Of a stretch of DNA of 64,000 bases, positions 28,181 to 55,435 are shown in pieces (position 1 is the first letter of the stretch; each line of letters opens with the position of its first letter). Position numbers and translations under genes: made by a program. This DNA comes from Lyngbya sp. CCAP 1446/10 (GTDB taxonomy: Bacteria; Cyanobacteriota; Cyanobacteriia; Cyanobacteriales; Microcoleaceae). Below the pieces are notes generated by a model. It was not told the DNA's origin, searched no databases, and saw nothing but the letters and a program-made list of their open reading frames with translations. Location of the stretch: contig NZ_JAIGNI010000156.1 in the NCBI RefSeq assembly GCF_026130175.1, positions 1-64,000 on the forward strand. The letters run 5' to 3'.

Positions 28181-28224
28181 TGTTTTACCTTGGCAGATCG
28201 GAAGTCCATATAGAGATGATTTCA

Positions 28225-29214: not shown

Positions 29215-29255
29215 ATTTATTTGGTTGCTGTAAAAGTTTTTAATCGATCGCCCAC

Positions 29256-33876: not shown

Positions 33877-34146
33877 TCAAGAGTGGATGTGTTGATAGAA
33901 AACTCGTTTAACAGTTTCTGCACAGAGGATGTAAAGTCCGACAATTGCTGCCAGCACTAACAGGAATTCGAGCGGCAAAGATTGGAATCCCAGTAAACTT
34001 GCAAGCGGAGTATAGGGAAGAAATAGTGCGATCATGACGATCGCGATCGTTGACATCAACAAATACTTTCCCGGCTTGCTCGCGAGAATCGATTGCCGCG
34101 TCCGAATCACCAGCACAATCATGGATGCAGAAATCACCGATTCCAT
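33877..34146 (-). pseudogene. C-terminal fragment of an MgtA-type P-ATPase
   Basis: Encodes the last about 85 residues (MESVISASMIVLVIRTRQSI through LLGFQSLPLEFLL and VKRVFYQH) of the full-length ATPase at 48785-51301, with few differences at DNA level. The similarity begins around 33887 and ends abruptly at TTCCATA (34146). It has only the last membrane helices and no catalytic part. Confidence 0.85.
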
Positions 34147-34205
34147 AGATTAAAAAACTGATCGTTGCAGTCCACTGAATCCACATCTGACTCACCTGTA
34201 TTTTT

Positions 34206-34408: not shown

Positions 34409-36907
34409 TCAAGCGGTTCTGATAGAATTTGTTTGGCTCGATCTCCGTGGCATTAAAAGCCGATACGCGAGCAGTTTCACACAGTCATTCAGGATAAACC
34501 ACGCCAGCGCATAGCCCCAAACGAAAAGTGCCCAACCCCAGCCAAGGGGTGTCATAAATACACCATAAACCGCGATTACCGTCGCTATAGCTTGCGTCCC
34601 GAATACTGCCATCAATAAAATGCGTGCAGGACGAATCGACCAAAATGGGCCGCGTGTGCGCGTGAGGAAGATCGTCAGATGTCCCGCTACAGATAGCTTC
34701 AAATACATCAAGGTTTGAATGTGATCGCGATCGAGATGAAAGACACGCTCCCCAAGATAAAACAAGCCGAACGCGGAGATAACCCCGATCACACCCAGCA
34801 CTGTAGAAATCCCTAACACCAAGCGCATATCCCAAGCTTCAGGCTGATTGCGGTACTGCACATTGTCATAGGCGATCGACAAAATAGCACCATCATTAAG
34901 CAATGCCAGAATCACGATCATCACTGCGGTGACTGGGTAAAAGTTAAACACCAAAATCGCCAGGGTCATCAGCAACAATACACGTAGCGTCTCAGCGATG
35001 CGATAGATGGCGTAGCTGTTCATCCGTTGGAAAATGCGGCGACTCTCTTTGATCGCATCAATAATCACTGACAGTCCGGGCGTTGTCAGCACAATCGAAG
35101 CCGCTGCACGCGCCGCGTCTGTTGCACCCGAAACAGCGATGCCGCAATCAGCCTTCTTCAATGCAGGGGCATCATTGACTCCATCCCCCGTCATGCCCAC
35201 AATGTGATTCTGTTTTTGCAGCACATCGACAATGTGGAACTTATGTTCGGGGAACACCTGGGCGAAACCATCCGCTTGTTCGATCGACTGCATGACTGCC
35301 GCAGTTTCTTGCTGCTTTGAATCGCCTAGACTACTCGCATCGAGAATGTTTGTGCCTAGCCCCAACTTCTTAGCGGTTTCTTGGGCGATCGCAATGGCAT
35401 CGCCTGTCACCATCTTGATTTTGATGCCCATCTTGACTGCGCTGGCGATCGTTGATTCAGCATCGTCCCAAGGCGGATCAAACAGCGGTAACACCCCCAT
35501 AAATTGCCATTGATCATCATTCTCCGATCGCGCCACACCTAATGAGCGAAAGCCGCGTTTTGCAAAGTCGTTGACCGCCTTATCAACATCAGGCTTCACC
35601 TGGTCAGCATTCTTTGACAGTGCTAGAATCACCTGTGGCGCGCCTTTCGTCACTTTGAACGTTTTGCCATCCTTGTCTTTTACGGTCGCCTCAGTGCGCT
35701 TGTGAACCGGGTCGAAGGGGGTGAAGTGAACAGTCTTGTAAGTCTTTAATGAATCCTGATCTTTGAGTCCGTCTAGAACAGCGAGATCGATCGTGTCGTT
35801 ATTGTCTGCACTTGATGCCAGTGCGCCATTAAAAATCACTTGATCGGCGGGGATATTGTTGACGCTGAATGGATCGCCCAAAGTCAGCTTGTTCTGGGTC
35901 AGAGTGCCAGTTTTATCCGCGCATAAAACGTCCACACCAGCCAATTCCTCGATCGCCACCAACCGACTAACGATCGCTTTTTTCTGAGAAAGTTTCCGTG
36001 CACCAACTGCCATCGTCACGGATAACACCGTTGGCATCGCCACAGGAATCGAGGCAACAGTCAGCACCAAAGCAAACTGTAACGTTTCGAGGATAGGGTC
36101 ATGACGGAACAGCGCAACAGTAATAATCAACGTCACCAATACAAGCGCGAGGACGATCAGGTAGTTGCCAATCTTGAGCACTGCCTTTTGAAAATGGCTG
36201 TCTGTATGAGCTTCCTGCACCAGTTGCGCCGTCTTGCCGAAATAGGTTTTGCTACCTGTGGCATAAACCAGCGCGTTACTCTCACCCCGACGCACGATCG
36301 AGCCAGAAAATACCGCGTCTCCAGAGTTGCGTGTAGCGGGTAGGGATTCGCCCGTCAGTGTGGACTGATCGATCGACATTGAATCGCCATCCAGCAAGCG
36401 GGCATCGGCTGGCACAATGTTACCCAAGCGAAGCCGAATGACATCGCCCGGAACCAGTTCGCGCGCTGGTAATGTCACCCATTGCCCATCACGTTTCGCC
36501 TGAGTCTGAGTCGCAAGTTTAGCCTTCAAAGCCGCGATCGCATTGCCCGCCTGACGTTCCTCCCAGAAACCGACCACCGCATTGGTCAACAGTAAAAAGA
36601 GAATGATGAAAAAATCTGGCCAGTGTCGCACCACGGCTGACAAAATCACTGCCACTTCGATCATCCACGGAATCGGGCCCCAAAAATAGCTGAGGAATTT
36701 CAAGAGTGGGTTAGTCTTCTTTTCCTCAATCTCATTCGGCCCATTTTCAGTCAAGCGCTTTTTTGCCTCGGCTTTCTGGAGACCATCGGGTGACGACTTT
36801 AATCTTTTCTGCACTTCTGGTAGTGGCAGAGTTTTCAAATCGTCTTTGGCATCGGGCTGCGATTTGGGATCTTTGGGCGCTTTAGGAGCTTTGGTACTGG
36901 GTTTCAT
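34409..36907 (-). CDS. Plasma-membrane proton-efflux P-type ATPase (P3A)
   Basis: 832-aa H+-ATPase of the yeast/plant PMA type. Landmarks: TGES (185-188), phosphorylation site DKTGT with Asp331, KGAPQVIL in the nucleotide domain and GDGVNDAPALKKAD at the hinge. About ten membrane helices; the N-terminal 40 residues are basic and Pro-rich. Such pumps expel H+ using ATP. In cyanobacteria they are uncommon and may compensate acidification in darkness or fermentation (inference). AAGGAA precedes the ATG. GST and PPK2 genes flank it on the same strand. Confidence 0.93.
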   Translation of the reverse strand: MKPSTKAPKAPKDPKSQPDAKDDLKTLPLPEVQKRLKSSPDGLQKAEAKKRLTENGPNEIEEKKTNPLLKFLSYFWGPIPWMIEVAVILSAVVRHWPDFFIILFLLLTNAVVGFWEERQAGNAIAALKAKLATQTQAKRDGQWVTLPARELVPGDVIRLRLGNIVPADARLLDGDSMSIDQSTLTGESLPATRNSGDAVFSGSIVRRGESNALVYATGSKTYFGKTAQLVQEAHTDSHFQKAVLKIGNYLIVLALVLVTLIITVALFRHDPILETLQFALVLTVASIPVAMPTVLSVTMAVGARKLSQKKAIVSRLVAIEELAGVDVLCADKTGTLTQNKLTLGDPFSVNNIPADQVIFNGALASSADNNDTIDLAVLDGLKDQDSLKTYKTVHFTPFDPVHKRTEATVKDKDGKTFKVTKGAPQVILALSKNADQVKPDVDKAVNDFAKRGFRSLGVARSENDDQWQFMGVLPLFDPPWDDAESTIASAVKMGIKIKMVTGDAIAIAQETAKKLGLGTNILDASSLGDSKQQETAAVMQSIEQADGFAQVFPEHKFHIVDVLQKQNHIVGMTGDGVNDAPALKKADCGIAVSGATDAARAAASIVLTTPGLSVIIDAIKESRRIFQRMNSYAIYRIAETLRVLLLMTLAILVFNFYPVTAVMIVILALLNDGAILSIAYDNVQYRNQPEAWDMRLVLGISTVLGVIGVISAFGLFYLGERVFHLDRDHIQTLMYLKLSVAGHLTIFLTRTRGPFWSIRPARILLMAVFGTQAIATVIAVYGVFMTPLGWGWALFVWGYALAWFILNDCVKLLAYRLLMPRRSSQTNSIRTA

Positions 36908-37212
36908 GATGTATATTCCTTATTGTTTTTACCAGAAAAAATTGGTTTAAAGCCTTTCCCTTAAAGGCGAGAAATTAAAATCAGACTATTCATTAGACCT
37001 CTTGTAGAAATCTTCGAGTCATAGAGCAACCGCAGATATCGGGCAGATGCAACACCGATTGACGCAGATTGTTTCAGGGTATTTTCGGATTTTTGCAAGA
37101 GGTATATTACTCCAATCCTCTTCCTTCTAGGTAGAAGTAGCTGTCAACTGTCAACTGTCAACTGTCAACTGTTAACTGAATATCGTGAGTTGTAGTGAAA
37201 GGATTGCCGTCT
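36908..37212. repeat. Spacer with an inverted-repeat element and heptamers
   Basis: No gene. ACCTCTTGTAGAAATC (about 36997-37012) pairs imperfectly with GATTTTTGCAAGAGGT (37088-37103), bounding a MITE-like stretch of about 110 bp. It is followed by TGTCAAC heptamers at 37141-37178, the opposite-strand form of GTTGACA. Confidence 0.6.
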
Positions 37213-38145
37213 TCAGCTTTCGCTCTCAAGCATTACCTTCGCTTGCAAAAGTTCCTGGTGTTGTGCCTCACTGACCTTGGGATAGTGAAGATTGAGTTCC
37301 TTTAATTGGGAATAAATGATTCCTGCTACAGCAAGGCGCGTAAACCATTTATGATCGGCTGAGATGATGTGCCAGGGTGCCCACGCTGTGCTGGTGTGAT
37401 TGAACATATCTTCGTAAACAGTCATGTAGTCATCCCAAAAAGCACGCTCTTTAGCATCATTGGTGGAGAATTTCCAATTTTTCTCAGGGCGATCGATTCG
37501 TTCTAAAAAGCGTTTCTTTTGTTCTTTTTTGGAGACATTCAGGAAAAATTTCAAGATTACTGTCCCGTTCTTGACGAGATAGTTCTCAAAGTTGTTGATT
37601 TCCTCAAAACGCTGCTTCCAAAGGTGTTTGTCGATTAGGCTAGGCGGGAGTTGCCGTTGCTCTATGATTTCTGGATGGACTCGTGTTACTAAAATTTCCT
37701 CGTAATAAGAGCGGTTAAAAATGCCAATTTTTCCTCGTTCTGGTAGCGCCTTAGAACATCGCCATAGATAGTCATGATCCAACTCTTCTGTAGACGGAGC
37801 TTTGAAGCTATGCACTTGACATCCCTGGGGATTGATGCCGGACATGACGTGCTTAATAGTGCTATCTTTTCCCGCCGCATCCATCGCTTGAAAAATAATC
37901 AGCAACGAGTAAGTATTTTGGGCATAAAGCATATCTTGGTAATGTTTTAAAGCCTCAATCACTTCCCGCAAGTCACTTTTAGAGTCCGACTTTTTCAGAT
38001 AATGGGCTTTATAATCTGGGTCGTAGTCTTTGGCAAGGGAAATTTTCTGCCCTGGCGGCACAATCAAGGGACGCATAAATTCGGCATGACTTTTGCTGGA
38101 AAATAGTTTCAATCCTGAATCAGGTTTGCTGTGGCGATCGCTCAT
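37213..38145 (-). CDS. ppk2: Polyphosphate kinase 2 family protein
   Basis: 310 aa, with a P-loop-kinase-like core: Walker A variant FQAMDAAGKDSTIKHVMSG, lid segment and Walker B-like GIFNRSYYEEILVTRVHPE, then KFFLNVSKKEQKKRFLER. PPK2 enzymes transfer phosphate between polyphosphate and nucleotides (AMP, ADP or GDP depending on class); the class cannot be fixed here. In the island it may make ATP or ADP from polyphosphate when photosynthesis stops (inference). GGGAG precedes the ATG. Confidence 0.92.
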   Translation of the reverse strand: MSDRHSKPDSGLKLFSSKSHAEFMRPLIVPPGQKISLAKDYDPDYKAHYLKKSDSKSDLREVIEALKHYQDMLYAQNTYSLLIIFQAMDAAGKDSTIKHVMSGINPQGCQVHSFKAPSTEELDHDYLWRCSKALPERGKIGIFNRSYYEEILVTRVHPEIIEQRQLPPSLIDKHLWKQRFEEINNFENYLVKNGTVILKFFLNVSKKEQKKRFLERIDRPEKNWKFSTNDAKERAFWDDYMTVYEDMFNHTSTAWAPWHIISADHKWFTRLAVAGIIYSQLKELNLHYPKVSEAQHQELLQAKVMLESES

Positions 38146-38302
38146 TATTTTCTTGCTCCCTGGAGATTGAATGATGTGCTTGGTCTTACCTTGAAATAGA
38201 TGACTGCGCCGATGACTTTAACAGAAGTGTTTGAGCAGTTCGTCATCGAAATTTCGCTAACGGTGATGAATAGTAATGAGTTTGGTGATGTGCGGCATCA
38301 GC

Positions 38303-38506
38303 CTAAATAAGAAATCCCAGCTTTCTACCGTTTTCGCGAGCAATATGAAGTAACTCAATCTGTTGTTGATGGTTCAGACCCATCCATCCACTCGCATGAA
38401 TAATGATGTTGGAATGTATCTCAATGACTTTAGCTCTGATATGAGTAAAACGCTGTACGCCAAGAACTCGCCGGATTAAAGAAACAATGGGTGCAAACAT
38501 GAACAA
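38303..38506 (-). CDS. Hypothetical 67-aa protein
   Basis: Not recognised. It has a hydrophobic/basic N-terminus (MFMFAPIVSLIRRVLG), a beta-like VIEIHSNIIIHASG and a C-terminal helix QQQIELLHIARENGRKLGFL. AAGGA lies about 11 bases before the ATG at 38506. It stands between PPK2 and DUF3122 copy 2 on the same strand. Confidence 0.5.
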   Translation of the reverse strand: MFMFAPIVSLIRRVLGVQRFTHIRAKVIEIHSNIIIHASGWMGLNHQQQIELLHIARENGRKLGFLI

Positions 38507-38530
38507 TTATCCTTTTGATTTTTGAATGAT

Positions 38531-38572
38531 TAAGCTGTTATGTATTTGAAATTTTAGGGGCATAACAGCTTA
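38531..38572. terminator. Stem-loop behind DUF3122 copy 2
   Basis: Perfect 12-bp inverted repeat TAAGCTGTTATG (38531-38542) and CATAACAGCTTA (38561-38572) with an 18-base loop. No T-run follows, so it is a weak terminator candidate. Confidence 0.4.
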
Positions 38573-38713
38573 TTGGAAGCGAATCCCAAAGACTGAATAA
38601 CTTGAAAGGGCAGAGGCTCTACAGCCCCACGCCGACCTTAATTGATTGATGTTCCAGCGGGGCATATCTTGATTTAACTGTTTGCTGTCGATCGCCTGAT
38701 GTAAAGCGTTTAC

Positions 38714-39247
38714 TCAAGGGCTGGTAAGGGTTTGCCATTCCTGAATTGCAGCAGCGGGAACCGATAATCGGACGGCTTTCCCGTCGAGGGTTGGGACTGT
38801 CAATTGCAAGGGAATTTCTGCCTGCAACTGCGATAGGGCAAGCTTAATGTCATATTCCCCAACATTCGCTGGAGTGGCTGTGTCCTGAGAAATGTTGCTA
38901 GAAATATCCTTAGCAGTCAGTGTTTGTCCCAGGGATGTGGTTAGGGTGAGCGGTTGAGTGCGATCGAGCTCCGCCCCACCGGGAAAACTGATGAGTCGCA
39001 GGGAGACGATCGCACTTCCTTCGGGATGGACGCGCTTAAATGCGATCGCCTGCCACGTTTTTCCAGCTTGATCTTGCAGGCTTTGCCGAGATTGGTAGAG
39101 CATCTGGCCTGGATATTCTTCGATTTGCGTCACAACAGCAAAAGCGGGTAAGGAATTTCCCACCAGCAGTAAGCCGCAAATGCAAACGGTTAGCAGCCAG
39201 CGCCAAGGGGAGATTTTAAATCGATTAAAGCTGATTAAGTTGATCAT
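38714..39247 (-). CDS. DUF3122 protein, copy 2
   Basis: 177 aa from the ATG at 39247, preceded by GAGG. It has a signal/anchor helix (about 15-35) and the DUF3122 pattern EEYPGQMLYQSRQSLQDQAG, ISFPGGAELDRTQPLTLT, NVGEYDIKLALSQLQ, AAIQEWQTL. It is more diverged than copies 1 and 3. It follows a periplasmic rhodanese gene by 77 bp, as copy 3 does. Confidence 0.85.
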   Translation of the reverse strand: MINLISFNRFKISPWRWLLTVCICGLLLVGNSLPAFAVVTQIEEYPGQMLYQSRQSLQDQAGKTWQAIAFKRVHPEGSAIVSLRLISFPGGAELDRTQPLTLTTSLGQTLTAKDISSNISQDTATPANVGEYDIKLALSQLQAEIPLQLTVPTLDGKAVRLSVPAAAIQEWQTLTSP

Positions 39248-39324
39248 AAAAGTCCTCATGAGTTTCAAGTTTTTGGTAGTTTCAGTGTAAACAATTGGAG
39301 GTTTAATCCAATTGTTTTTGTGAA

Positions 39325-39852
39325 TTAATTGGAGGCAATACGCTCTCCCGAAGCCTTCCAGCCTGCAAAGCTAGGGGGAAATCCCTGTACATTCTCATAG
39401 CCCAACAGGTGTAGAGTCATGACTCCCATTGCCGAGCGATAGCCCGTTGAACAGTACAACACCACCGGGCGATCGCGCGGGATTTCATTCAAGTTTTGAG
39501 CCAGTGTGCGAAGCGGAATATTGATCGCGTTAGGGATATGTCCCGACTTATACTCAGAGGGTTCTCGCACATCTACCAACACAGTTTGAGGATTTTTTAA
39601 TCGGGTTTTCAATCCTGCAACATTGGCGATCGTGAAATAGCCTGATGGAATTGAAGTGAGAAAGCGATCGACCTCCGATTCCAGATTCACAGCGACTTCA
39701 GAGATTGCTGGACTCTCTTGAGCAATCACGCCAGTTTCGGCCAAAGACCCCGCCAGAACTGAGTTTTGACCAAGGGTAAATAAAACACAAATACCTAGTA
39801 AAAATCCCCAAAATATTGTCTGAATTGATTTCTTGCAGCTTATTAAAAACAT
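39325..39852 (-). CDS. Exported rhodanese-like protein, copy 1
   Basis: 175 aa: signal peptide (FWGFLLGICVLFTLGQNSVLAG), then a single rhodanese domain with DVREPSEYKSGHIPNAINIP and the active-site loop CSTGYRSAMG (persulfide Cys). Such proteins move sulfane sulfur or act on thiols. Export and linkage to DUF3122 suggest a periplasmic redox or sulfur role (inference). A broken duplicate is at 48053-48382, and a diverged intact paralogue at 52179. Confidence 0.88.
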   Translation of the reverse strand: MFLISCKKSIQTIFWGFLLGICVLFTLGQNSVLAGSLAETGVIAQESPAISEVAVNLESEVDRFLTSIPSGYFTIANVAGLKTRLKNPQTVLVDVREPSEYKSGHIPNAINIPLRTLAQNLNEIPRDRPVVLYCSTGYRSAMGVMTLHLLGYENVQGFPPSFAGWKASGERIASN

Positions 39853-39923
39853 TCTCTGACCCCATCTTTAAGAACTTGATGAGCGTTCATTGCGCTTCGT
39901 CAACCATTTCTTGCAGCGTTTTG

Positions 39924-42899
39924 TCATACTTTTAACGCTCTATGATCTAATTTGGTTTGCAGTTCGGTCAGGTGAACCCCGATCAGGTTGGGTAGAACGA
40001 GATTGGCAGCACCAACACGACTGGGAGAACCGATGCCGATCGACCCCATACCAGCAGCGATCGCAGCGGCAACACCAACCGGGGCATCTTCCACCACCAC
40101 ACAGTGAGCTGGAGCAAGTCCTAACTGAGTTGCGGCGTACAGAAAAATGTCAGGGGCTGGCTTAGGACGATCGACGCTGTAGCCATCTGCGATCGCATCG
40201 ACGTGCTCGGCAATCCCCAACTTTTCAATCACAGCTTTGGCATTCTTGCTGGCAGATCCGATCGCAATTTTCATACCCGCTTGCCTCAGTTCGTCCAAAA
40301 GCGCGATCGCTCCTGGCAAAAGATTCTGCGGTGTGATGCTTTGAATCGATGCCACATAGTAGCGATTTTTGCGCTCCATCATTTCCTGGATCTGGGCTTC
40401 AGAGTACGGGCGATCGCCCACAATCAGCATCAAAGATTTGCGTCTAGCGACACCTCGCAGTGCCTCATTTGCCTTTCGGTTAAAGGGCAGATGCTCTTCG
40501 TCAGCCAGTTTCTGCCAAGCACGATAATGAAATTCAGCCGTGTCTGTGAGAACCCCGTCAAGGTCGAAAATGAACCCCTGAATGTCAGTCGCGTGATCGT
40601 CAGATCCATAAGCCTGCGACGGCACTAGATCGAAGCAGTGCCAAGTGCCGCGCCAGTTCAGCTTGAATTTGAGACGAGTCCAGGTGGGAGGGAGGTGCGG
40701 AGTGGCAACGGGGCCACTGTCTTTCAGTTGAATGCCGCCAAAGCCAAACACCACAGCTTGCCAGACTCCGCCTGCGGAAGCCCCATGAATACCATCTATG
40801 GTATTGCCGCGATTATCATCAAGATCGACCATCGCAGCCTGCATCAAATGCTTGTAGGCATCTTCTACCTCACCTAGATTGGCGGCGAGGCTCGCGTGAA
40901 TGGCGGGTGTCAGGGACGATCCGTAGGTGCTGTCTGTGCGGGGCGCGTAGTAGTCCCAGTTTTTTTGCAGCACATTACAATAATCCGGGAGAGCTTGCGT
41001 GTCTCGCATCAAGTAGAGGAGCATCAACACATCGGGTTGCTTGAGTACCTGCCGCTGATTTGTGGCGTCAATACCGAGAATTGCTTGCATCGAGCGATCG
41101 CGGGGCTCATACTTGCTTAAATCGATATCTTGAAGCTTGAAAAACCCCTCAAACTGCTCGATTAGACCTGTTTTAACATCGTGAGGAATATACAGCTTGT
41201 CAATCATTGTCTGCCACAGCCGCCGCTGCTCTGCGGTGAGTTGCAGTTCTTGTGCCAGTGCAGTTGCCCGATCTGGAAACGTCTGTTGTAGCCAGTCGTA
41301 GACAGCTACAGCCTTTTCGAGATGCCACTGCACCATCCGATTGGTGAAGGCATTGTTATTGACTCGCTCATGGTATTCATCCGCTCCAATCACCCCGCAC
41401 AGTTCATACCGTTCCTGCTCGGCGTGCCACTCCAGCCGGCTCATCCAGAACAGCGCCGTGTCGAGGATGATTTCAGCGCCATAGTCGCGCAGCCAGTTAT
41501 CGTCGCCCGTTGCCTGCCAGTAGTGCCAGACAGCTAATGCAATGTCAGCACTCAGATGAATTTCGCGATCGCGACACCAGATGCGGACTACTTCTGCATA
41601 GGGGTCGGTCGATATCGACGTTTGGGGCGTTACCTCATCGCCAGTGGTGGCACTTTCCCAGGCAAACATTGCGCCCTTGTAGCCACTATGGGCGGCTTTG
41701 CGACGTGCGCCCTCCAGGGTGTGATAGCGATAGGTGAGCAAGTTGCGGGCGATCGCAGGTTGCGTAAAAGTAAAAAAGGGCAGGATGAAAATTTCGGTAT
41801 CCCAAAAAATATGCCCTCGGTAGCCAAACCCAGACAGCGTTTTAGCCGGAACGCTGACTCGATCGTTGTGAGAGGAGGCGCTGATCAGGAGTTGAAATAT
41901 GTTGTAGCGCACTGCCAACTGAGCCGTGCGATCGCCCTCGATCTCAATATCGCTGTGTTCCCAAACGGCATCCCACGCCCGCCGATGAGCATCAAGGAGC
42001 ACCCTGTATGCTGGCAGATTCGCCAGTTTGTCCTGGGCTGCTTGCAGTGGGATCTCAACATCCTGGGACGTAAACACTGTCGCGACCTTTTCAATGCTGA
42101 TAGTCTGTCCCGCGATCGCACTGAAGACGCTCAATACGGTAGAGTCACCGCGAGCATTTGTCACCTGAAAAGAGGCATCAGCGCCAATCACCGCCAGTTT
42201 GAACGCCATACTGAGATCAATGTGAGAACTGCGGGTGCGTACCTGTAGCCAAACGCCCTGCCCTGTCCCTTTTTCGATCTGTCCCGAATCGATCTGCTCC
42301 CAGTGGTTAAAGCCTTGGGTGTCAGGATAACCATTGAGGCTGGACTGTACCTCGATCGTGCCGCTAAAGTCGATCGGTGTGATTTGACAGCACAGTCCTA
42401 GTACGTGGTGATCGTCTAGGCTGGCAAAGCGCTCAAACTTTAAATCCAATGTCTTGCCAGTGGGACTCCGCCAGCGCACTGAGCGGCTCAAAAGCCCATG
42501 ATGTAAGTCAAGCTGCCGTTCGTAATGAAGGATTTCGCCGCGATCGAGCCGAAACCGTTCTCCGTCAAGAGCGATCGTCAAAGATAGCCAGTCAGGACAG
42601 TTTGCCAACTCGGTATAGATCACGGGCACATCGTCATAAACCCCATGAATTAAGGTGGCTGGCAACGCCTCTGGGTATCCTTCCTCAAAACTGCCCCGCG
42701 TCCCTAAACAACCGTTGCCGATCGTAAAGACGGTTTCTCTAGCACACAACTGCTCTGGATCAAATTGAGCTTCACGCAGCGTCCAATCTGTGTAAATCAA
42801 ATCACGAGAGTCTTCTAGAATTTTCATGTTTGTTAGGGAGTGAGGTTGGCTGAACATGGGGGCAACGATCCCGAAATGGCGCAGGGGGTTTGGTTTCAT
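39924..42899 (-). CDS. GH65 disaccharide phosphorylase fused to beta-phosphoglucomutase
   Basis: 991-aa bifunctional protein. Residues about 25-760 are a GH65 inverting phosphorylase: general acid Glu508 in GVIGADEYHERVNNNAFTN, and a phosphate-site HGASAGG at 705-711. From about 772 a HAD hydrolase/beta-PGM domain follows: FDLDGVLTDT with Asp779 and Asp781, GSASKNAKAV and KPAPDIFL with VVVEDAPVG. The protein can thus split maltose, trehalose or a related alpha-disaccharide with phosphate and convert the beta-glucose-1-P to glucose-6-P. The start overlaps the aldolase stop by 4 bases. Substrate not assignable by eye. Confidence 0.92.
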   Translation of the reverse strand: MKPNPLRHFGIVAPMFSQPHSLTNMKILEDSRDLIYTDWTLREAQFDPEQLCARETVFTIGNGCLGTRGSFEEGYPEALPATLIHGVYDDVPVIYTELANCPDWLSLTIALDGERFRLDRGEILHYERQLDLHHGLLSRSVRWRSPTGKTLDLKFERFASLDDHHVLGLCCQITPIDFSGTIEVQSSLNGYPDTQGFNHWEQIDSGQIEKGTGQGVWLQVRTRSSHIDLSMAFKLAVIGADASFQVTNARGDSTVLSVFSAIAGQTISIEKVATVFTSQDVEIPLQAAQDKLANLPAYRVLLDAHRRAWDAVWEHSDIEIEGDRTAQLAVRYNIFQLLISASSHNDRVSVPAKTLSGFGYRGHIFWDTEIFILPFFTFTQPAIARNLLTYRYHTLEGARRKAAHSGYKGAMFAWESATTGDEVTPQTSISTDPYAEVVRIWCRDREIHLSADIALAVWHYWQATGDDNWLRDYGAEIILDTALFWMSRLEWHAEQERYELCGVIGADEYHERVNNNAFTNRMVQWHLEKAVAVYDWLQQTFPDRATALAQELQLTAEQRRLWQTMIDKLYIPHDVKTGLIEQFEGFFKLQDIDLSKYEPRDRSMQAILGIDATNQRQVLKQPDVLMLLYLMRDTQALPDYCNVLQKNWDYYAPRTDSTYGSSLTPAIHASLAANLGEVEDAYKHLMQAAMVDLDDNRGNTIDGIHGASAGGVWQAVVFGFGGIQLKDSGPVATPHLPPTWTRLKFKLNWRGTWHCFDLVPSQAYGSDDHATDIQGFIFDLDGVLTDTAEFHYRAWQKLADEEHLPFNRKANEALRGVARRKSLMLIVGDRPYSEAQIQEMMERKNRYYVASIQSITPQNLLPGAIALLDELRQAGMKIAIGSASKNAKAVIEKLGIAEHVDAIADGYSVDRPKPAPDIFLYAATQLGLAPAHCVVVEDAPVGVAAAIAAGMGSIGIGSPSRVGAANLVLPNLIGVHLTELQTKLDHRALKV

Positions 42900-43924
42900 G
42901 CTGCCGTCCTTTCCATCGCTGCCTTGTATTCGCCCTGACGCGCCGCCCCATTACACTTGGCTCGATGCAGCAGTGCCTGTTGTGCCGCCAACACGTTGGA
43001 CTCCTTGCCGTGCCAAAGTTCCAACGCGGGCTGCTGGATGGCGCGGGCATAGGAAAACGTCAATGCCCAAGGCGATCGCGCTTTGAATCTCAGATTCATG
43101 GCATTCAAACGAGCCGATGCCTGTTCAGCGGATTGACCGCCCGACAGGAATGCAATCCCCGGAACAGCAGCGGGAACCGATCGCAACAAACACTGCACCG
43201 TAGCATCAGCAACCTCCTCCACCGATGCTTGCTGGGGACAGGTCAATCCCGGCAGTACCATGTTGGGTTTGAGGATCATGCCCTCTAGCATCACCCGTTG
43301 TGTATAAAGCTGTTGGAAGACCGTTTGCAGGACTTTCGCCGTCACTTCGCCGCATTGCGATCGGGTATGATCACCCGCCATCAATACCTCTGGCTCGACA
43401 ATGGGAACCAGTCCAGCTTCCTGGCACAACGCCGCATAGCGAGCTAAGGCCTGGGCGTTTGCTTCGATGCAGCCTTGGCTGGGAATGTCCGTGCCGATCG
43501 TAATCACCGCCCGCCACTTAGCAAAACGAGCGCCCATAAGAGCATATTCCTGGAGGCGATCGCGCAAGCCATCCAGACCCTCGGTAATGGTTTCGCCCGG
43601 ATGACCTGCCATATCCTTAGCTCCAATATCCACTTTGATACCAGGAATGATTCCCGCTTCGGTGATGACTTGCACAAAGGGCGTACCATCTTTTTTTTGC
43701 TGGCGGATCGTTTCGTCGTAGAGGATCGCGCCACTGATGAACTCGCCGAGACCGGGCGTGGTGATCAGCAACTCTCGATAGGCGCGTCGGTATTCCTCTG
43801 TTTGCGGAATCCCCAGTTTGGCAAAGCGTTTGTTGCAGGTGGGATTGCTCTCATCCATTGCTAGCAGTCCCTTGTCATTGGCGACTAGCATTTTGGCAGT
43901 GTCTATAAGCTTTTGGTAATTCAT
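42896..43924 (-). CDS. Fructose-bisphosphate aldolase, class I
   Basis: 342 aa from the ATG at 43924, preceded by GGAGATGG. Class I (Schiff-base) aldolase: GLLAMDESNPTCNKRFAKLG, SGAILYDETI, and the active Lys in GMILKPNMVLPG; SGGQSAEQA binds phosphate. Cleaves fructose-1,6-bisphosphate to triose phosphates without metal. Cyanobacteria mostly use class II, so this is a second, auxiliary aldolase. Translationally coupled to the GH65-HAD gene through ATGA. Confidence 0.93.
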   Translation of the reverse strand: MNYQKLIDTAKMLVANDKGLLAMDESNPTCNKRFAKLGIPQTEEYRRAYRELLITTPGLGEFISGAILYDETIRQQKKDGTPFVQVITEAGIIPGIKVDIGAKDMAGHPGETITEGLDGLRDRLQEYALMGARFAKWRAVITIGTDIPSQGCIEANAQALARYAALCQEAGLVPIVEPEVLMAGDHTRSQCGEVTAKVLQTVFQQLYTQRVMLEGMILKPNMVLPGLTCPQQASVEEVADATVQCLLRSVPAAVPGIAFLSGGQSAEQASARLNAMNLRFKARSPWALTFSYARAIQQPALELWHGKESNVLAAQQALLHRAKCNGAARQGEYKAAMERTAA

Positions 43925-44346
43925 TGCTCCATCTCCAGTTGCGGATTTCCCGTCGCGATGCTTCACCCAACCACTGCCGCGCTTCAGCGGTGTCGGTGCG
44001 ATCGAAGTAGTGGATCGTCGCTTTTGAGTTGCTAAGGAATGAAAATTTAATAACTTAAGCGATTGACTCGTTTTACTCGTTACCAGGCTCTGCCTGGTAA
44101 TGCAGATCCGGAGGCTCTGCCTCTCTTGGACTTGCCGCTTATGGAAACAGAGGAGTGTGGCAGAGGTTTAATTTATGGCGTTGCTGAATTGGGAGATGAA
44201 ATCTGTAGGGGCAATCCCCCCGTGGTTGCCCCCACCGCCGATGGGGTAAGCACGGGGGCTTTACCCCTACTAACCCATCATACTTTCATTCAGCAACGCC
44301 CGTTCCTAACAATAGCTACCTATGATTGTTTAAAGGTTTGTCCGCT
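43925..44346. mobile_element. 422-bp gap with palindromes and a 124-bp MITE
   Basis: No supported gene. TTACCAGGC/GCCTGGTAA forms a hairpin near 44080. From 44177 to 44300 a 124-bp segment is bounded by perfect 13-bp inverted repeats GGCGTTGCTGAAT and ATTCAGCAACGCC, with an inner GGGGCAATCCCCCCGTGG/CACGGGGGCTTTACCCC near-palindrome. The ends resemble those of IS5/IS4-type insertion sequences (inference). A plus-strand frame across it is an artefact. Confidence 0.7.
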
Positions 44347-45123
44347 TCAACGGAGGAACTCCTTAGCTGTCGATTCCCAGTAGCCTGGGCGATTGTAATG
44401 CTGATGCAGTCTGGTCTCGTAATCCCGCGATAGCAGCGACTCCTCTGTATATGCCGGTGCTTGCTTGATGGTTTCGCGGGGAAGGTTGACAAAGACTTTT
44501 GACTCGCCCCAACTCACGCGATCGATCCATTGCGGTGCCAACAGAATCTTTTGTCCGGGCCACCAATTGCGTGTATCGACGATGAGATACCTAATCGTCC
44601 ACGTCTCCTCATCAATGATGAAATCTTCAATGTGACCCAGTTCCCCGTCTGCGGCTTGAATGTGATAACCAGTCACCTCATGGGTACTACGCAAATGAGG
44701 ATCCCACCCTTTCTCTTCTGGGGTGGTTTCGGCCTGTTTTTCAGGGTTAGGCTCCAGGTAGGGGTAGGGATACGATCCCCACATATAGGAATAGGAACCG
44801 CTCCAATACATCGGCCATCCATAATATCCGTAGTAGTCCGTCTCAAATTGTTGGGAGACTGGCTTGTCGCTGCTCAAGGAAGGACTGCTCTCAATCTGCT
44901 TTTTGGTCAAATTGATGGTGATGTGATGCTGTTCTTTCACCCGTGCCGCCAGCGCATAAGGAGAGATCAGTACCTGCCTGCCCGTCAGCCAGTTTCCTGT
45001 GTCAGCGACTAAATAGCGAATTGTCCAGTAATGGTCATCAAAGTAGAACTCTTTAACCTTCCCGATTTCATCATGGAGGTTTGCCAATTTGTAACCTTCT
45101 AGAGTCTTAGCTTTACTCAGCAT
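44347..45123 (-). CDS. PRC-barrel protein with two domains
   Basis: 258 aa from the ATG at 45123, preceded by AAGGAGAA. Two PRC-barrel repeats (about 6-80: GKVKEFYFDDHYWTIRYLVA; and about 150-225: GHIEDFIIDEETWTIRYLIV) are separated by a Tyr/Trp/Pro-rich linker (YYGYYGWPMYWSG). PRC-barrel proteins bind RNA or partner proteins. This twin-PRC type is seen in stress operons. It lies upstream of the aldolase gene across the MITE. Confidence 0.88.
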   Translation of the reverse strand: MLSKAKTLEGYKLANLHDEIGKVKEFYFDDHYWTIRYLVADTGNWLTGRQVLISPYALAARVKEQHHITINLTKKQIESSPSLSSDKPVSQQFETDYYGYYGWPMYWSGSYSYMWGSYPYPYLEPNPEKQAETTPEEKGWDPHLRSTHEVTGYHIQAADGELGHIEDFIIDEETWTIRYLIVDTRNWWPGQKILLAPQWIDRVSWGESKVFVNLPRETIKQAPAYTEESLLSRDYETRLHQHYNRPGYWESTAKEFLR

Positions 45124-45143
45124 AGAAACCTTCTCCTTAATAA

Positions 45144-45487
45144 TCAATTTTTGCTTAGAGGACGATAGTCAGGGCAATAAGCGTGATTGCTCAGTGAGAA
45201 CACCAGCGGGGTTTACGGATCGCGCGTAAATAGTGGTTATTTGTAAAGAAATGACAGTTCCTACAGGGAAGTGTATGGAAGTAGTTGAACGTTATATTTT
45301 TTGCTCTGACCACTTTCCAAGTTTTTGCCAGCATCAGAATGGAAATGACCAGAACTATCAGGGAGCCGAAGCGAATGACAGATAATCTGTCTCCAGATAT
45401 AATCACTCTCTCCTGGTTTGTTAGAACTGGTTTGGTTGCGATCGGGGTAACAGAAGTCTGTTTTACTTCCAGGTCATACTTGTTCAT
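45144..45487 (-). pseudogene. Membrane-anchored Cys-motif protein, frameshifted 3' end
   Basis: From ATG 45487 the frame gives NKYDLEVKQTSVTPIATKPV, a membrane helix (GSLIVLVISILMLAKTW) and the motif PCRNCHFFTNNHYL, as in a common cyanobacterial family. That family continues with a second Cys-containing part of the type CAVHP, LTE and CPDY. Here the frame runs off into IRKPRWCSH (stop at 45191), but the lost part is still legible in the other frames: SVNPAGVLTEQ, then YCPDYRPLSKN with a stop at 45144. Two small indels have therefore broken the end. An upstream ATG at 45538 is also open. Confidence 0.65.
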
Positions 45488-45579
45488 GGCTCGATTCAAC
45501 TCCACATAGAGGATGCAGAATCGAACCGCCGTTTTCATGGTTTGAATTGAATGGGCATTTGAGACTCCTTTGCATCATT

Positions 45580-48006
45580 TCAATTAGGTACAGGCGTTTT
45601 TTCGATCAGCAATTTCCCTTTCTGCGTTGCACCCGCACTCCATTTCCAGTCACGGATTTCCGGCAGATCCTGGCCATGTTGGTTAATGTACAGCTTGTGC
45701 TCAATCAGCTTGTCCTGCATCATCTGCTTCAGGTAAGACCCCTTCGCGCCTAAATGTGGCAGACGATCGATCGCGTCTTGCACGAGATGGAAGCGATCGA
45801 GGTCATTTTGCACCCGCATATCAAAAGCAGTCGTGATCGTGCCCTCTTCCTTGTAGCCCCGGACGTGGAGGTTGCGATTGGTGCGGCGGTAGGTTAGTCG
45901 GTGTACCAGCCAGGGGTAGCCATGAAAGCCAAAGATGATGTGTTTGTCTGTTGTAAAAAGCGAGTCGTAGTCCGCTTCGCTCAGTCCGTGGGGGTGTTCG
46001 CTGGCAGACTGCAACTTCATCAGATCGACCACATTAACAACCCGGATTTTCAGATCGGGGAGATGTTCGCGCAGAATCGAAACCGCCGCCAAAATCTCTA
46101 GCGTCGGCGTATCGCCACAGCAAGCCATCACTACGTCCGGTTCAGAGTCCTGGTCATTGCTAGCCCATTGCCAAATCCCGATGCCTTCGGTGCAATGGAT
46201 AACCGCTTCGTCCATCGTCAGCCATTGCGGCAGGGCGTGTTTACCAGCTACCACCACATTCACGTAATGACGACTCCGCAAGCAGTGATCGAAGACTGAC
46301 AGCAAACAGTTGCCATCGGCTGGCAGATACACCCGGACGATATCGGCTTTCTTGTTGATTACATGGTCGATAAAACCGGGGTCTTGGTGCGTGAAGCCGT
46401 TGTGATCCTGTTGCCAGACATGGGAGGCGAGTAGATAGTTGAGCGATGCGATCGGTCGTCTCCAGGGAAGTTCCGCCGTGACCTTCAGCCATTTGGCGTG
46501 CTGGCTAAACATTGAATCCACAATGCGAATGAAAGCTTCATAGCTATTGAATAGCCCGTGTCGTCCAGTCAGCAGATAGCCTTCTAACCAACCCTCGCAC
46601 TGATGCTCACTCAGCATTGAGTCCAGCACCCGTCCATCGGGCGCGAGAAACTCATCATTGCGTTCTTCTCGTGCGTCCCACTGTCGATTCGTAACTTCAA
46701 ACACTGCACCTAAAAGATTCGAGAGCGTTTCATCGGGCCCGAAGATCCGAAAATTCCGCTGTTCCTGATTCAGCTTGGCTACATCTCGCAAGAACTTGCC
46801 GAGCACGAGCGTATCCTGACCGTCAACAGCACCGGGCGTAGGCACTGTCACCGCGTAGTTGCGGAAGTCTGGCAGATGCAGGTCACGCAGCAGCAAACCA
46901 CCGTTGGCGTGAGGATTTGCGCCCATTCGTCGATCGCCCTGCGGAGCTAATTCTGCCAATTCCGGCAGCAGGCGTCCGGTTTCATCGAACAGTTCTTCTG
47001 CTTTGTAGCTTTTCATCCAGCTTTCTAGCAGTTGGACATGATCGGGATGCTCGGAATTCACCAGTAATGGCACTTGATGCGATCGCGATGTGCCCTCGAT
47101 TTGCAAGCCATCGACCACTTTCGGTCCCGTCCAACCCTTGGGAGACTTGAGGACGATCACCGGCCAGCGCGGTCGAGTTGCGTTGTTCTGGTTTCGCGCA
47201 TTGCTTTGATTTTGCCGGATGTCTGCGATCGCGCGATCCAACGTGCTAGCCATCAGTTCGTGCATCTTTTCAGGATCATCGCCTTCCACAAAGTAAGGTG
47301 TCCAGCCGCAGCCTCGGAGAAATTGCTCCAATTCTTCAGGCTCAATGCGAGCGAGGACGGTGGGGTTGTTAATCTTGTAGCCATTCAAGTGCAGAATCGG
47401 CAGCACGGCACCGTCAGTAATTGGGTTGAGCAACTTGTTGGATTGCCAAGCGGTCGCCAGAGGCCCCGTCTCCGCTTCACCATCGCCAATGACGCAGGCA
47501 ACAATTAGACCGGGATTATCGAAGGCTGCTCCGAAGGCATGGCTGAGGGAATACCCCAGTTCACCGCCTTCGTGAATTGACCCTGGCGTTGTGGGTGCTA
47601 CATGGCTGGAAATCCCGCCAGGAAACGAGAATTGTTGGAACAGTTTTTTCAGACCCGCTTCATCCTGGGTAATGTTCGGATAAATCTCGCTCCAGGTGCC
47701 TTCGAGGTAAACATTGCCTACGATCGCAGGGCCACCGTGACCGGGCCCGGCAATGTAGAACATATCCAAGTCATACTTCTTAATCACCCGATTCAAATGC
47801 ACATAGATGAAGTTCTGCCCCGGTGTTGTACCCCAATGTCCGACGACTAGCGGTTTGACGTGGGAAAGTTTCAGCGGCTCCTTTAGCAGCGGGTTGTCGT
47901 AGAGGTAGATCTGTCCAACAGACAAATAGTTTGCGGCACGCCAGTAAGCATCAATGTTATGAAGTAATGTCGGGGAAAGTGTGCGGGAAAGCATTTTGAG
48001 TGTCAT
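45580..48006 (-). CDS. xfp: Phosphoketolase (xylulose-5-P/fructose-6-P)
   Basis: Thiamine-diphosphate enzyme cleaving xylulose-5-P or fructose-6-P with phosphate to acetyl-phosphate. Full length (808 aa): [60 protein letters not shown] motif [18 protein letters not shown] and C-terminal [16 protein letters not shown]. It allows carbon to bypass lower glycolysis, yielding acetyl-P for acetate and ATP. No acetate kinase is adjacent. It sits between the Mg2+ ATPase and the PRC-barrel gene in the same orientation. Confidence 0.96.
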
Positions 48007-48052
48007 GGTTTAAAGGTTCTTATGTGAACCGAGATTGAGGATACGGACAATG

Positions 48053-48784: not shown

Positions 48785-51301
48785 CTATTGTACGTGTTGA
48801 TAGAAAACTCGTTTCACAGTTTCTGCACTGAGGATGTAAAGTCCGACAATTGCCGCCAGCACCAACAGGAATTCGAGCGGCAAGGATTGGAATCCCAGTA
48901 AACTTGCAAGCGGAGTATAGGGAAGAAATAGTGCGATCATGACGATCGCGATCGTTGACATCAACAAATACTTTCCCGGCTTGCTCGTGAGAATCGATTG
49001 CCGCGTCCGAATTACCAGCACAATAATGGATGCAGAAATCACAGATTCCATAAACCAACCAGTTCGGAATTGCGCGGGGTTGGCGTGCAGCAGAAATATC
49101 AATGCTCCAAACGTCAGATAATCAAAGACTGAACTGAGTAAACCAAACACCAACATAAATTTGCGGATAAACTTGATATCCATGCGCCGGGGTTTGTTTA
49201 CCAATTCCTTGTCTACGCGATCGGTGGCGATCGTCATTTCGGGAAAATCAGTCAATAGATTTGTGAGTAAAATCTGACTGGGCAGTAGCGGCAAAAACGG
49301 TAAAAACAGAGAAATACCTGCCATGCTGAACATATTGCCGAAATTAGCGCTCGTTGCCATAAACACGTATTTCAGCGTATTAGCAAACGTTACCCGTCCT
49401 TCCTTCACACCCTCAACCAAAACATTTAAATCTTTTTCCATCAGCACAATGTCGGCTGCTTCCTTCGCCACATCAACCGCACTCTCAACGGAAATTCCCA
49501 CATCCGCAGCATGAAGCGCCGAGGCATCGTTAATGCCGTCTCCTAAATAGCCAACCACATTCCCCGCTTTTTTCAGCGCGATGATAATCCGCTCTTTTTG
49601 ATTCGGCTCAACTTCAGCAAAAACATTGGTTTCTCCAACACGATGAAGTAGCGCTTCATCACTGAGTTTTTGCAGTTGGGAACCAGTCAAAACCTTTGGT
49701 TCGGGTAGTCCTACCTGTTGAATAATACTGATCGCTACAGCCCGACTATCGCCCGTAATCATCTTCGGGGTGATTCCCAGGGCTACCAAATCTTTGAGGG
49801 TGTCAGCAATGCCTGGTTTCGGCGGATCGAACAGCGCCAGATAGCCCATAAATGTCATGTTCGTTTCATCGTCTTTGCTGAAGGAATCGGTTTCAAAATT
49901 GCGGTAAGCAACTCCCAATACTCGAAATCCCTTGCTGCCCAATTCTTCAGCGCGTTGTTGAATCTTGTCCTGTTGTGGCGCAATGTCGATCGCAATTCCG
50001 TCACCAGTCTCTACCGTTGAGCAGACATCCAGAATCGTCTTAAGCGCTCCTTTGGTGACAATTAGATGGGTATTCTGTTGTTTAAACAGGATGCTTAAGC
50101 GTTTGCGGTTGAAATCGTAGGGCACTTCATCGAGCTTTTGATAGCCTGAGATGTCGAATGTCTTGTGTTGGCGGATGGCTTGGTCGATCGGATTGACATA
50201 GCCAGATTCAGATGCAGCATTCAAATAAGCATAGAGCAAAACCCGATCGCTCTCCTTGCCATCCACATCAACCGCCGAGTGAATTTTCACCTCCCCTTCC
50301 GTCAGCGTACCCGTCTTATCCGTACAAAACACGTTCATACTGCCAAAATTCTCGATCGCAGCCAACCGCTTTACAATCACCTGCTTGTTAGCCATTTGCT
50401 TAGCGCCGCGAGACAAATTGAGGCTGACAATGGCGGGCAGAAGTTGAGGAGTCAGGCCAACCGCCAGCGCTAGGGAAAATAGAAATGATTCCAAAACCGG
50501 GCGTTTCAGGTAAACATTGGCGGCAAAGATTAGGACAACCAGAATCAGCGTCACCTCCATCAGAAAGTAACCAAACTTGCTGAGTCCCTGTTCAAATTCG
50601 GTTTCCGGCGGCCTAAGTTTCAATCGTTCCGATACCTTACCAAACTCAGTTTCCTTTCCGGTATGCACCACCACTGCTTTGCCAGTACCGCTAATAACAT
50701 TAGTTCCCATATAAAGGATGTTAGTGCGCTTACCCAAATCGGTTTCAGCGGGCAAAACGCCGCTGAGTTTGTCAGCCGGGTAAGTTTCTCCAGTCAGCGC
50801 CGCTTCATTCACCGACAAATCTTTCGACTCTAAAATCAGGCAGTCACCGGGAATACTATCGCCAGCGTTAAGCAACACAATGTCACCCGGAACCACGTCC
50901 TCATTGGGAATTTCTTGAGATTTACCGTCACGCACAACCGTTGCTTTCACTTGCACCAAAGCCAGGAGTTTCTCAACAGCATTTGTCGCTCCCCGTTCTT
51001 GCCAAAATCCTAGTAAGCCACTAATTAGGACGATCGCCAAAATAATGATCGCATCTGCCGCATCTTTCAGAAATATCGACAGCACAGCGGCAAAAATCAG
51101 AATCAAAATAATCGGACTTTTGAACTGGTTGAGCAACAGCGTCAGTGAGTTCGATTGCTGTTTCTGTTTCAGGCTGTTCGCGCCGTATTCGCTCAGGTGT
51201 TGTTTAGCATCCTGGCTGCTTAAACCTGCGGTTGTAGACTTCACCTGAGCCAGCACCCGATCGGCAGGTAAGCTCCAAAACATCGAAAGTTGTGAATTCA
51301 T
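48785..51301 (-). CDS. mgtA: Magnesium-importing P-type ATPase (P3B, MgtA-like)
   Basis: 838-aa transporter: TGET (170-173), phosphorylation site FCTDKTGTLTEG with Asp328, KGALKTILDVCS, and the hinge LGDGINDASALHAADVGIS, where the Ser of NDASALHAAD is typical for MgtA/MgtB. About ten membrane helices. MgtA imports Mg2+. The last 85 residues are duplicated at 33877-34146. The upstream neighbours are DUF3122 copy 3 and rhodanese copy 2. Confidence 0.93.
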   Translation of the reverse strand: MNSQLSMFWSLPADRVLAQVKSTTAGLSSQDAKQHLSEYGANSLKQKQQSNSLTLLLNQFKSPIILILIFAAVLSIFLKDAADAIIILAIVLISGLLGFWQERGATNAVEKLLALVQVKATVVRDGKSQEIPNEDVVPGDIVLLNAGDSIPGDCLILESKDLSVNEAALTGETYPADKLSGVLPAETDLGKRTNILYMGTNVISGTGKAVVVHTGKETEFGKVSERLKLRPPETEFEQGLSKFGYFLMEVTLILVVLIFAANVYLKRPVLESFLFSLALAVGLTPQLLPAIVSLNLSRGAKQMANKQVIVKRLAAIENFGSMNVFCTDKTGTLTEGEVKIHSAVDVDGKESDRVLLYAYLNAASESGYVNPIDQAIRQHKTFDISGYQKLDEVPYDFNRKRLSILFKQQNTHLIVTKGALKTILDVCSTVETGDGIAIDIAPQQDKIQQRAEELGSKGFRVLGVAYRNFETDSFSKDDETNMTFMGYLALFDPPKPGIADTLKDLVALGITPKMITGDSRAVAISIIQQVGLPEPKVLTGSQLQKLSDEALLHRVGETNVFAEVEPNQKERIIIALKKAGNVVGYLGDGINDASALHAADVGISVESAVDVAKEAADIVLMEKDLNVLVEGVKEGRVTFANTLKYVFMATSANFGNMFSMAGISLFLPFLPLLPSQILLTNLLTDFPEMTIATDRVDKELVNKPRRMDIKFIRKFMLVFGLLSSVFDYLTFGALIFLLHANPAQFRTGWFMESVISASIIVLVIRTRQSILTSKPGKYLLMSTIAIVMIALFLPYTPLASLLGFQSLPLEFLLVLAAIVGLYILSAETVKRVFYQHVQ

Positions 51302-55376: not shown

Positions 55377-55435
55377 CTCATATCCTGAGTCGATCGAGTT
55401 AACGTGCCGTTTTTTTCCACAAAGCTTTTACAGAT

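Follow-up and report, generated by a model that had tools for sequence, protein, structure and literature searches.

We analysed a stretch of 64,000 nucleotides from the cyanobacterium Lyngbya sp. CCAP 1446/10 (contig NZ_JAIGNI010000156.1, positions 1 to 64,000), called the window (G000:C68) in the following, which is part of a 6.75-Mb cyanobacterial genome in 171 contigs. It contains a 43.9-kb inserted island with genes for a phosphoketolase (XFP), a class I fructose-bisphosphate aldolase (FBA), an inverting GH65 phosphorylase fused to beta-phosphoglucomutase (GH65-bPGM), a polyphosphate kinase (PPK2) and a plasma-membrane type proton pump (P3A). A previous reading made from the sequence alone (the sequence-only reading) had taken these genes, together with lactate dehydrogenase (LDH) and chaperone genes, as a single set for ATP supply and acid handling. 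Much of this parts list indeed recurs in clusters elsewhere, both in other cyanobacteria and on plasmids from three further phyla, while LDH and the chaperones fall away from it. On balance we lean towards the view that the island is a mobile, modular cassette that would provide ATP from sugar and polyphosphate and export protons.

The island and its genes

DNA comparison with six genomes of the same genus revealed that window positions 14,300-58,194 (43,895 bp; no strand assigned) are an insertion, with a galT-like gene on one side and an unknown 373-aa gene on the other. The site is empty in G273 (C75), where the alignment runs to window position 14,299 and resumes at 58,195 with 148 bp between. 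The same two flanks lie 3.2 kb apart in G260, the right-hand flank is about 175 kb and 33 kb distant on the same contig in G277 and G033 respectively, and neither island edge was matched in G219. Phorm 6 (G209) also has an island here, flanked by the same two genes as in the window; on its left side, part of the right-hand flanking gene is repeated over 284 bp. Among 16 genomes of the genus, the P3A pump and the window-type XFP are each found in two, the window's own genome and Phorm 6. The host chromosome that received the island belongs to a cyanobacterium close to the polar Microcoleus/Tychonema group. A classical integrase island was rejected, because no recombinase was recognised among the 40 window proteins scanned with Pfam (scans that took in all but the short open reading frames (ORFs)) and no 11-mer is common to positions 14100-14799 and 57800-58399. 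Raised G+C was also dropped as a mark of the insert: XFP, FBA and GH65-bPGM reach 0.53-0.55, but the insert as a whole (0.462) lies slightly below the remainder of the window (0.472).

The sequence-only reading had described the genes as lying in one orientation over about 25 kb. In family profile searches every named gene turned out to be an intact ORF on the minus strand, so presence and orientation stand, while the physical unit is the larger insertion. XFP (45580..48006; 808 aa) matches PF09364/PF03894/PF09363 and NF003619 (1419 bits vs a cut-off of 962); its conserved segments agree with 8io8, the closest solved XFP, and with 3ahc. FBA (42896..43966; NF033379, 526 bits vs a cut-off of 250) is the sole match of the genome at E<=1e-40, contains an LKPN motif at residue 232, whose residue role in aldolase we presume, and overlaps with its end the start of GH65-bPGM by 4 nt. 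In GH65-bPGM (39924..42899; 991 aa; PF03632/PF03636 plus TIGR01990), the bPGM part exceeds the equivalog cut-off of TIGR01990 (236.6 bits vs 189.4). For the GH65 part, the closest solved sequence is kojibiose phosphorylase 3wiq, which makes kojibiose only a candidate substrate, and the GH65 models among the NCBIfam rows shown are all below their cut-offs (417.5 of 838; 281 of 800); a candidate catalytic Glu, presumably with this role, is preserved in GADEYHE. PPK2 (37213..38145; PF03976) passes TIGR03709 (396 bits vs a cut-off of 247.2) and misses the narrower model NF042973 (399.8 vs 450 bits). Its nearest solved relatives are 6au0 (the best; titled class III) and 6an9, from which a class III role is predicted. 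The P3A H+-ATPase (34409..36907) reaches 1069 bits for the TIGR01647 equivalog (cut-off 615.5), and DKTGT at 331 and the Asp in LND at 670 both align with plant AHA2 (5ksd); we take DKTGT to be the phosphorylation motif and the Asp in LND to be that of M6. The key motifs of pump, GH65 and aldolase are thus all intact.

Several further genes accompany this set on the same strand. The small conserved protein orf115 (45191..45538; 115 aa), between xfp and the PRC gene, has no Pfam or NCBIfam match, and is 96% identical in Phorm 6 and 67% in Phormidesmis BC1401, where it adjoins PRC. The PRC-barrel protein (44347..45147; PF05239) shows 98% identity in Phorm 6, 85% in BC1401 and 74% on a Pseudanabaena plasmid, and several plasmid islands of proteobacteria and one of an actinobacterium have annotated PRC-barrel genes. 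The P3B Mg2+-transporting ATPase MgtA (48785..51301; TIGR01524, 803 bits vs a cut-off of 610.75) is 96% identical in Phorm 6, and its copies near XFP in G090 and on a Leptolyngbya plasmid are 81% identical. DUF3122 (38714..39268; PF11320) is present in three intact copies, with paralogues at 51547-52089 and 24606-25148, and rhodanese (39325..39852; PF00581) in two, plus a partial 92% copy at 48044-48343, upstream of xfp. A YflT stress domain protein (26050-26586) and, at the right end of the island, a NACHT-domain NTPase (55742..58057; PF05729/PF22727) were also found.

Recurrence of the gene set and descent of its parts

A lack of conserved clustering in any relative would have spoken against the sequence-only reading, but clustering was found: large parts of the set are co-located in Phorm 6, BC1401, the metagenome-assembled genome (MAG) PMM_0080, G246, G212 and G090. 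The order in Phorm 6 and BC1401 is XFP, orf115, PRC, FBA, phosphoglycerate mutase (PGAM), GH65-bPGM, PPK2 and pump, with other genes interspersed. A PGAM relative lies between FBA and GH65-bPGM in these two and in G246, which has XFP-FBA-PGAM-GH65-bPGM-pump within 11 kb; the window and PMM_0080 have no PGAM there. In G090, a genome assembled into three contigs, an 18-kb part of a 447-kb contig holds GH65-bPGM, MgtA, two PNPOx genes, an oleate hydratase, an XFP of the other clade (see below), PPK2 and FBA. The pump gene stands next to PPK2 in the window, Phorm 6, BC1401 and G126. Generally, gene order differs in most relatives fetched. An oleate hydratase relative recurs near XFP or GH65-bPGM (L011, L012, L014, L046, L124, L177, L184, L191, L264), and none was recognised among the window proteins scanned.

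FBA with at least 78% identity was found in 5 of 30 genomes examined, all of which have XFP at most 12.2 kb away (0.4 kb in G246). A full-length P3A pump with at least 65% identity is present in six genomes, and XFP lies within 20 kb of it in four (G000, G209, G246, G227); near pumps of the 52-59% type, no XFP was found in the five fetched stretches (about 9 kb each side). For the 291 genomes of the order, with a limited number of candidates scored per genome, window-type XFP (at least 77%; next copies 72%) is present in 7, the P3A pump at E<=1e-200 in 18, and both in 5 (hypergeometric p = 1e-5, with cut-offs chosen after the identities were seen and p values that ignore relatedness). This is more co-occurrence than chance would give; two of the five have the pump on another contig than XFP (G078, whose pump is only 54% identical, and G052).

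GH65-bPGM has a second context. In 54 of the 80 loci of cyanobacterial type that were fetched, many of them truncated, it stands behind sucrose synthase, and XFP is present in 2 of the 80, so that GH65-bPGM looks recruited into the island. The sucrose synthase-GH65-bPGM pair shares the same fusion protein with the window (about 62-73% identical), whereas most of these loci are without XFP, PPK2 and the island-type pump within the fetched extent. Sucrose synthase stands directly before GH65-bPGM in L009, L010, L012, L013, L079, L119 and most of L016-L083, which pairs sucrose cleavage with an inverting phosphorylase; no sucrose synthase was recognised among the window proteins scanned.

Outside the cyanobacteria, XFP, FBA, PPK2 and the pump were searched for in a plasmid collection of 72,556 records. 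Among the matches listed, XFP with at least 74% identity (at least 95% of the query) occurs in 11 records, class I FBA with at least 60% in 12, and both in 8, again beyond chance though with cut-offs chosen once the identities were known; class I FBA like that of the window is scarce on plasmids (any match in 24 of 72,556 records). The nearest plasmid XFPs (about 81%) are from Rhodococcus AQ5-07, Lichenicola cladoniae and Hymenobacter psoromatis; those of Frondihabitans and Polymorphobacter come next. Among the pumps, the nearest (72-77%) are from Caballeronia, Sphingomonas paeninsulae, Rhodococcus AQ5-07, Lichenicola, Acidiphilium, Frondihabitans and Polymorphobacter. These organisms belong to Actinomycetota, Pseudomonadota and Bacteroidota, and their islands have overlapping neighbour genes. 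Of the 20 best XFP plasmid records, 19 were fetched, all but H37, which nearly duplicates H36. FBA is in the fetched stretch of 9 of the 11 records with XFP of at least 74% and adjoins XFP in 8 of them (two of these in two pieces), and it was found in none of the 8 fetched stretches with XFP below 72%. The P3A pump is in the fetched stretch of 4 of the 11, and the Lichenicola pump is 22 kb away. Matches in two pieces are XFP and FBA of S. paeninsulae and FBA and pump of Frondihabitans.

For instance, the Rhodococcus plasmid contains XFP-FBA-pump-bPGM-GH65 as one run, and on the plasmid of Polymorphobacter megasporae, pump-PPK2-PRC-pentose phosphate genes occur along with acetate kinase-XFP-FBA-PGAM. 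Pump and PPK2 are also neighbours in Caballeronia, Polymorphobacter, S. paeninsulae and Lichenicola. The cyanobacterial plasmid of Pseudanabaena galeata carries XFP, PRC, PPK2 and GH65-bPGM, with a 64% relative of the NACHT gene near them. Universal stress genes are found in the Rhodococcus and Frondihabitans islands, adhP in Frondihabitans, and acetate kinase in Hymenobacter and Lichenicola. The XFP-FBA plasmid islands of six genera (Lichenicola, Polymorphobacter, Hymenobacter, Rhodococcus, Frondihabitans and Sphingomonas, the last as S. paeninsulae) thus resemble the window in an XFP of 74-81% identity with a class I FBA adjoining it, in a P3A pump on at least one plasmid in five genera, and in PPK2, PRC-barrel and GH65/bPGM genes in some. 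They differ in sugar entry (glucoamylase, GH130), in PPK2s of other lineages where tested, in the acetate kinase, pentose-phosphate, slipin or Usp (universal stress protein) genes that several of them bear, and in being plasmid-borne whereas the island of the window is chromosomal. Very large glucoamylase-family genes (about 2,800 aa) stand beside XFP-FBA-PGAM on plasmids of lichen bacteria (L115, L118, L121). The set is not specific to cyanobacteria, since XFPs of the same clade and pumps that group with that of the window are on plasmids of three other phyla; a cyanobacteria-only cluster was rejected because of these plasmid neighbours.

The trees were limited to the loci fetched, and copies in two pieces or partial ones (S. 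paeninsulae XFP, Frondihabitans pump and others) were dropped by the coverage filter. In the XFP tree (a quick tree of 54 rows), one branch (Shimodaira-Hasegawa-like approximate likelihood ratio test, SH-aLRT, 100) unites nine cyanobacterial island-type copies, including that of the window, with ten non-cyanobacterial plasmid copies. Cyanobacterial unity is rejected by the approximately unbiased (AU) test (p-AU 5e-9, with the group named after the identities were seen). The island XFP is 81% identical to the Rhodococcus plasmid copy and 70% to the host's own second XFP. The latter, which lies near acetate kinase on contig C89, is of the same family, with acetyl-phosphate going to acetate, but falls in the other half of the tree with other cyanobacterial XFPs. 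The pump of the window groups with four non-cyanobacterial plasmid pumps (100/100). Its PPK2 clusters with cyanobacterial PPK2s, away from the pump-adjacent PPK2s of the Sphingomonas, Caballeronia and Polymorphobacter plasmids, and relatives of GH65-bPGM at 62% or more are nearly all cyanobacterial. These groupings indicate that XFP was exchanged between phyla, that the pump probably was, and that PPK2 and, judged by its relatives, GH65-bPGM were recruited locally. Joint descent of all parts was rejected for PPK2 by the tree and is unlikely for GH65-bPGM, judged by relatives rather than by a tree.

Local additions and remnants

LDH (28225..29304, minus strand; TIGR01771 equivalog, 387.9 bits vs a cut-off of 303.6) was rejected as a core member, because the four other genomes of the genus tested hold only a 34-35% relative and dispersed repeats surround the gene. 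It is framed by two copies of a dispersed palindromic repeat resembling miniature inverted-repeat transposable elements (MITE-like), whose copies in the window are at 28044-28187, 29250-29450 and 55426-55616; the genome has at least 41 further matches (E<1e-20; 40 of 209 candidates scored), and many are found in Phorm 6. LDH is 89% identical to one in G111, from another family of the order, which points to a separate transfer. In Calothrix elsteri (L031), an LDH fragment (72%) next to XFP and GH65-bPGM lies at the end of a contig and reaches only 10% coverage, and we left it unused. The extra copies of DnaJ (16706-17689) and DnaK (19665-21551), both on the minus strand, were not found in the fetched island stretches of Phorm 6. 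LDH and the chaperones are local additions.

Broken genes are found as well. A 95-aa ORF behind the H+-ATPase (33908..34195, minus strand) is a remnant of mgtA, a 96% nt copy of the mgtA 3' end (48789-49052), and has a 95% relative at the same place in Phorm 6. A 2,3-bisphosphoglycerate-dependent PGAM is broken into two fragments (27363..28028, minus strand; NF002217 best for both). Beside LDH, fragments of pyruvate kinase (29905-30294) and an ABC-transporter ATPase (29521-29766) are remnants of lost genes. Outside the island, a large array of clustered regularly interspaced short palindromic repeats (CRISPR) at 2148-7168, with a 37-nt repeat in its consensus units and periods of about 70-78, adjoins cas1 at 439-1605.

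Proposed function and competing explanations

If the island is a cassette of the kind that we favour, the GH65 phosphorylase would split an alpha-glucoside with phosphate into glucose and beta-glucose-1-phosphate, and the fused bPGM would turn the latter into glucose-6-phosphate without ATP cost. XFP would convert fructose-6-phosphate or xylulose-5-phosphate to acetyl-phosphate and erythrose-4-phosphate or glyceraldehyde-3-phosphate, the class I aldolase (plus PGAM in relatives) would serve the triose side, and the acetate kinase of the host (one match in the genome, about 3 kb from the second XFP) would produce ATP and acetate from acetyl-phosphate. PPK2 may recharge AMP or ADP from polyphosphate, the P3A pump would spend that ATP on exporting the protons freed with acetate or lactate, and MgtA would supply Mg2+. 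The net effect would be that ATP and cytoplasmic pH are upheld when light and oxygen fail. The analysis establishes what the genes are, the insertion, the conserved clustering, the kinship of XFP across phyla and the mixed origins of the parts. These fluxes, which follow from known enzyme families, the substrate, the conditions of use, co-regulation and mobility by plasmids, as well as the roles in fermentation and acid stress, are our inference.

The main argument for a set that works together as a functional unit is that one parts list has been rebuilt from different lineages. Alternatively, the site could be an accessory-gene hot spot where useful but unrelated genes were gathered through repeat or plasmid recombination and have no joint function, which we consider unlikely. 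Such a hot spot would fit the duplicated rhodanese and mgtA fragments, the dispersed repeats around LDH, the broken PGAM, pyruvate kinase and ABC fragments and the gene order that varies in most relatives fetched. It fits less well with the fact that the same parts accompany XFP again and again in four phyla, since chance does not readily rebuild a set. Among them are XFP-FBA and pump-PPK2 as adjacent pairs, and the PPK2s of the second kind of pair come from different lineages.

Several observations weigh against a functional, mobile cassette. No acetate kinase was recognised among the window proteins scanned, and the cassette may be in decay in the window, which is without the intact PGAM that its relatives have. 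Intergenic gaps of 305, 380, 568 and 778 bp in the cluster suggest several transcription units, four consensus patterns for FNR, CRP and NtcA have no exact match in the window, and no regulator is recognised or annotated in the cluster. Linkage of pump and XFP is missing in 2 of the 6 genomes with the pump (G126, G129:C4). The AU test leaves cyanobacterial unity unrejected for the pump (p=0.23) and the aldolase (p=0.31), and PPK2 and GH65-bPGM, by their sequence relationships, are not shared by descent with the plasmid islands. XFP clade and gene context match imperfectly, because the XFPs of G227, G090, G002 and Calothrix elsteri, which are clustered with pump, GH65-bPGM or FBA, and clustered XFPs of Leptolyngbya plasmids sit in the other half of the tree, while a Monoglobus plasmid XFP without an island falls in the island half. 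What's more, the location on plasmids partly reflects the collection searched, and XFP-FBA pairs may be ordinary on chromosomes.

As to regulation, XFP is followed by PPK2 on the Pseudanabaena galeata plasmid pPg_02 (L119), and about 4 kb behind this PPK2 a Crp/Fnr-family regulator gene is annotated. It is a candidate regulator of such islands.

Two other functions were considered. A carbon-conserving cassette for growth in light or mixotrophy, in which XFP and aldolase channel carbon into acetyl-CoA and the cycling of sugar phosphates, the pumps keep ion balance and no fermentation takes place, would agree with the position of LDH outside the core and with 8io8, which we take to be a Synechococcus elongatus enzyme of photosynthetic metabolism, as the closest solved XFP. 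We regard it as quite improbable, because related islands are found in the non-photosynthetic Rhodococcus, Frondihabitans, Hymenobacter and Lichenicola, together with universal stress, adhP or acetate kinase genes. Recovery of compatible solutes after thaw or rewetting, in which GH65-bPGM would recycle an alpha-glucoside (kojibiose, trehalose, sucrose-derived or glucosylglycerol) and the rest would handle sugar phosphates, is suggested by the frequent place of the fusion behind sucrose synthase and by solved relatives that include kojibiose phosphorylase and the GH65 structures 4ktp/4ktr (presumably the glucosylglycerol phosphorylase of PMC3899277), but it is the least probable explanation, as it leaves pump and PPK2 unexplained and the sugar source looks exchangeable, with glucoamylase, glycogen phosphorylase or GH130 in other islands.

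The proposed cassette belongs among the mobile islands for stress and metabolism, a known kind. The closest described analogue known to us is the low-oxygen-activated (lxa) locus of Burkholderia cenocepacia, with 50 genes (PMC6127331, PMC9104464), which has a similar setting and a different make-up. It likewise groups accessory genes of metabolism and stress that are linked to surviving without oxygen, and BON-domain genes, a further likeness, are annotated near two plasmid islands. Unlike the window, lxa is described there with six universal stress proteins, alpha-crystallin and phosphofructokinase (PMC6127331, PMC9104464), and the word phosphoketolase is absent from the main text of both papers. 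Membership of the lxa locus was rejected, as the Usp family has no match among the 40 window proteins scanned. Searches of a PMC library aimed at this gene set, judged by title and abstract start, turned up no published description of it.

Habitat gives some hints on the conditions of use. By source or country field, 7 of the 11 top XFP plasmid records are polar or from lichens, vs 1 of 57 others (in a sample of 60 drawn evenly from the 239 XFP plasmid records). This excess is confounded, as one strain collection (PAMC) accounts for 5 of the 7 and source fields are missing, and collection bias is likely. In PMM_0080, the pump is 99% and GH65-bPGM 98% identical to the window. This MAG comes from a polar mat and is grouped with Tychonema and Microcoleus vaginatus, with Phorm 46 from a Canadian Arctic lake as nearest strain (PMC10438808); Phormidesmis BC1401 is from Greenland (PMC5939894). 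The island type is not confined to the poles, because the Pseudanabaena galeata plasmid island comes from a locality in Kartuzy County. This county is in Poland.

A broader version of the favoured reading, which we put forward tentatively and with more doubt than belief, sees a plasmid-borne survival kit shared across phyla. Sugar phosphorolysis, phosphoketolase and polyphosphate kinase would fuel a plant/fungal-type proton pump, by which a photosynthetic or aerobic cell would hold its proton gradient and pH in mats and lichens under frozen, dark or anoxic conditions, with selection acting on the parts list and parts swapped for unrelated versions in each host. How filamentous cyanobacteria outlast polar night, ice cover and anoxic mats is a standing question. 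If such a shared kit for ATP and pH in the dark exists, the island would supply testable genes for that survival, link cyanobacteria to the plasmid gene pools of lichen and polar soil bacteria from other phyla, and place a P3A proton pump coupled to polyphosphate in a bacterial context.

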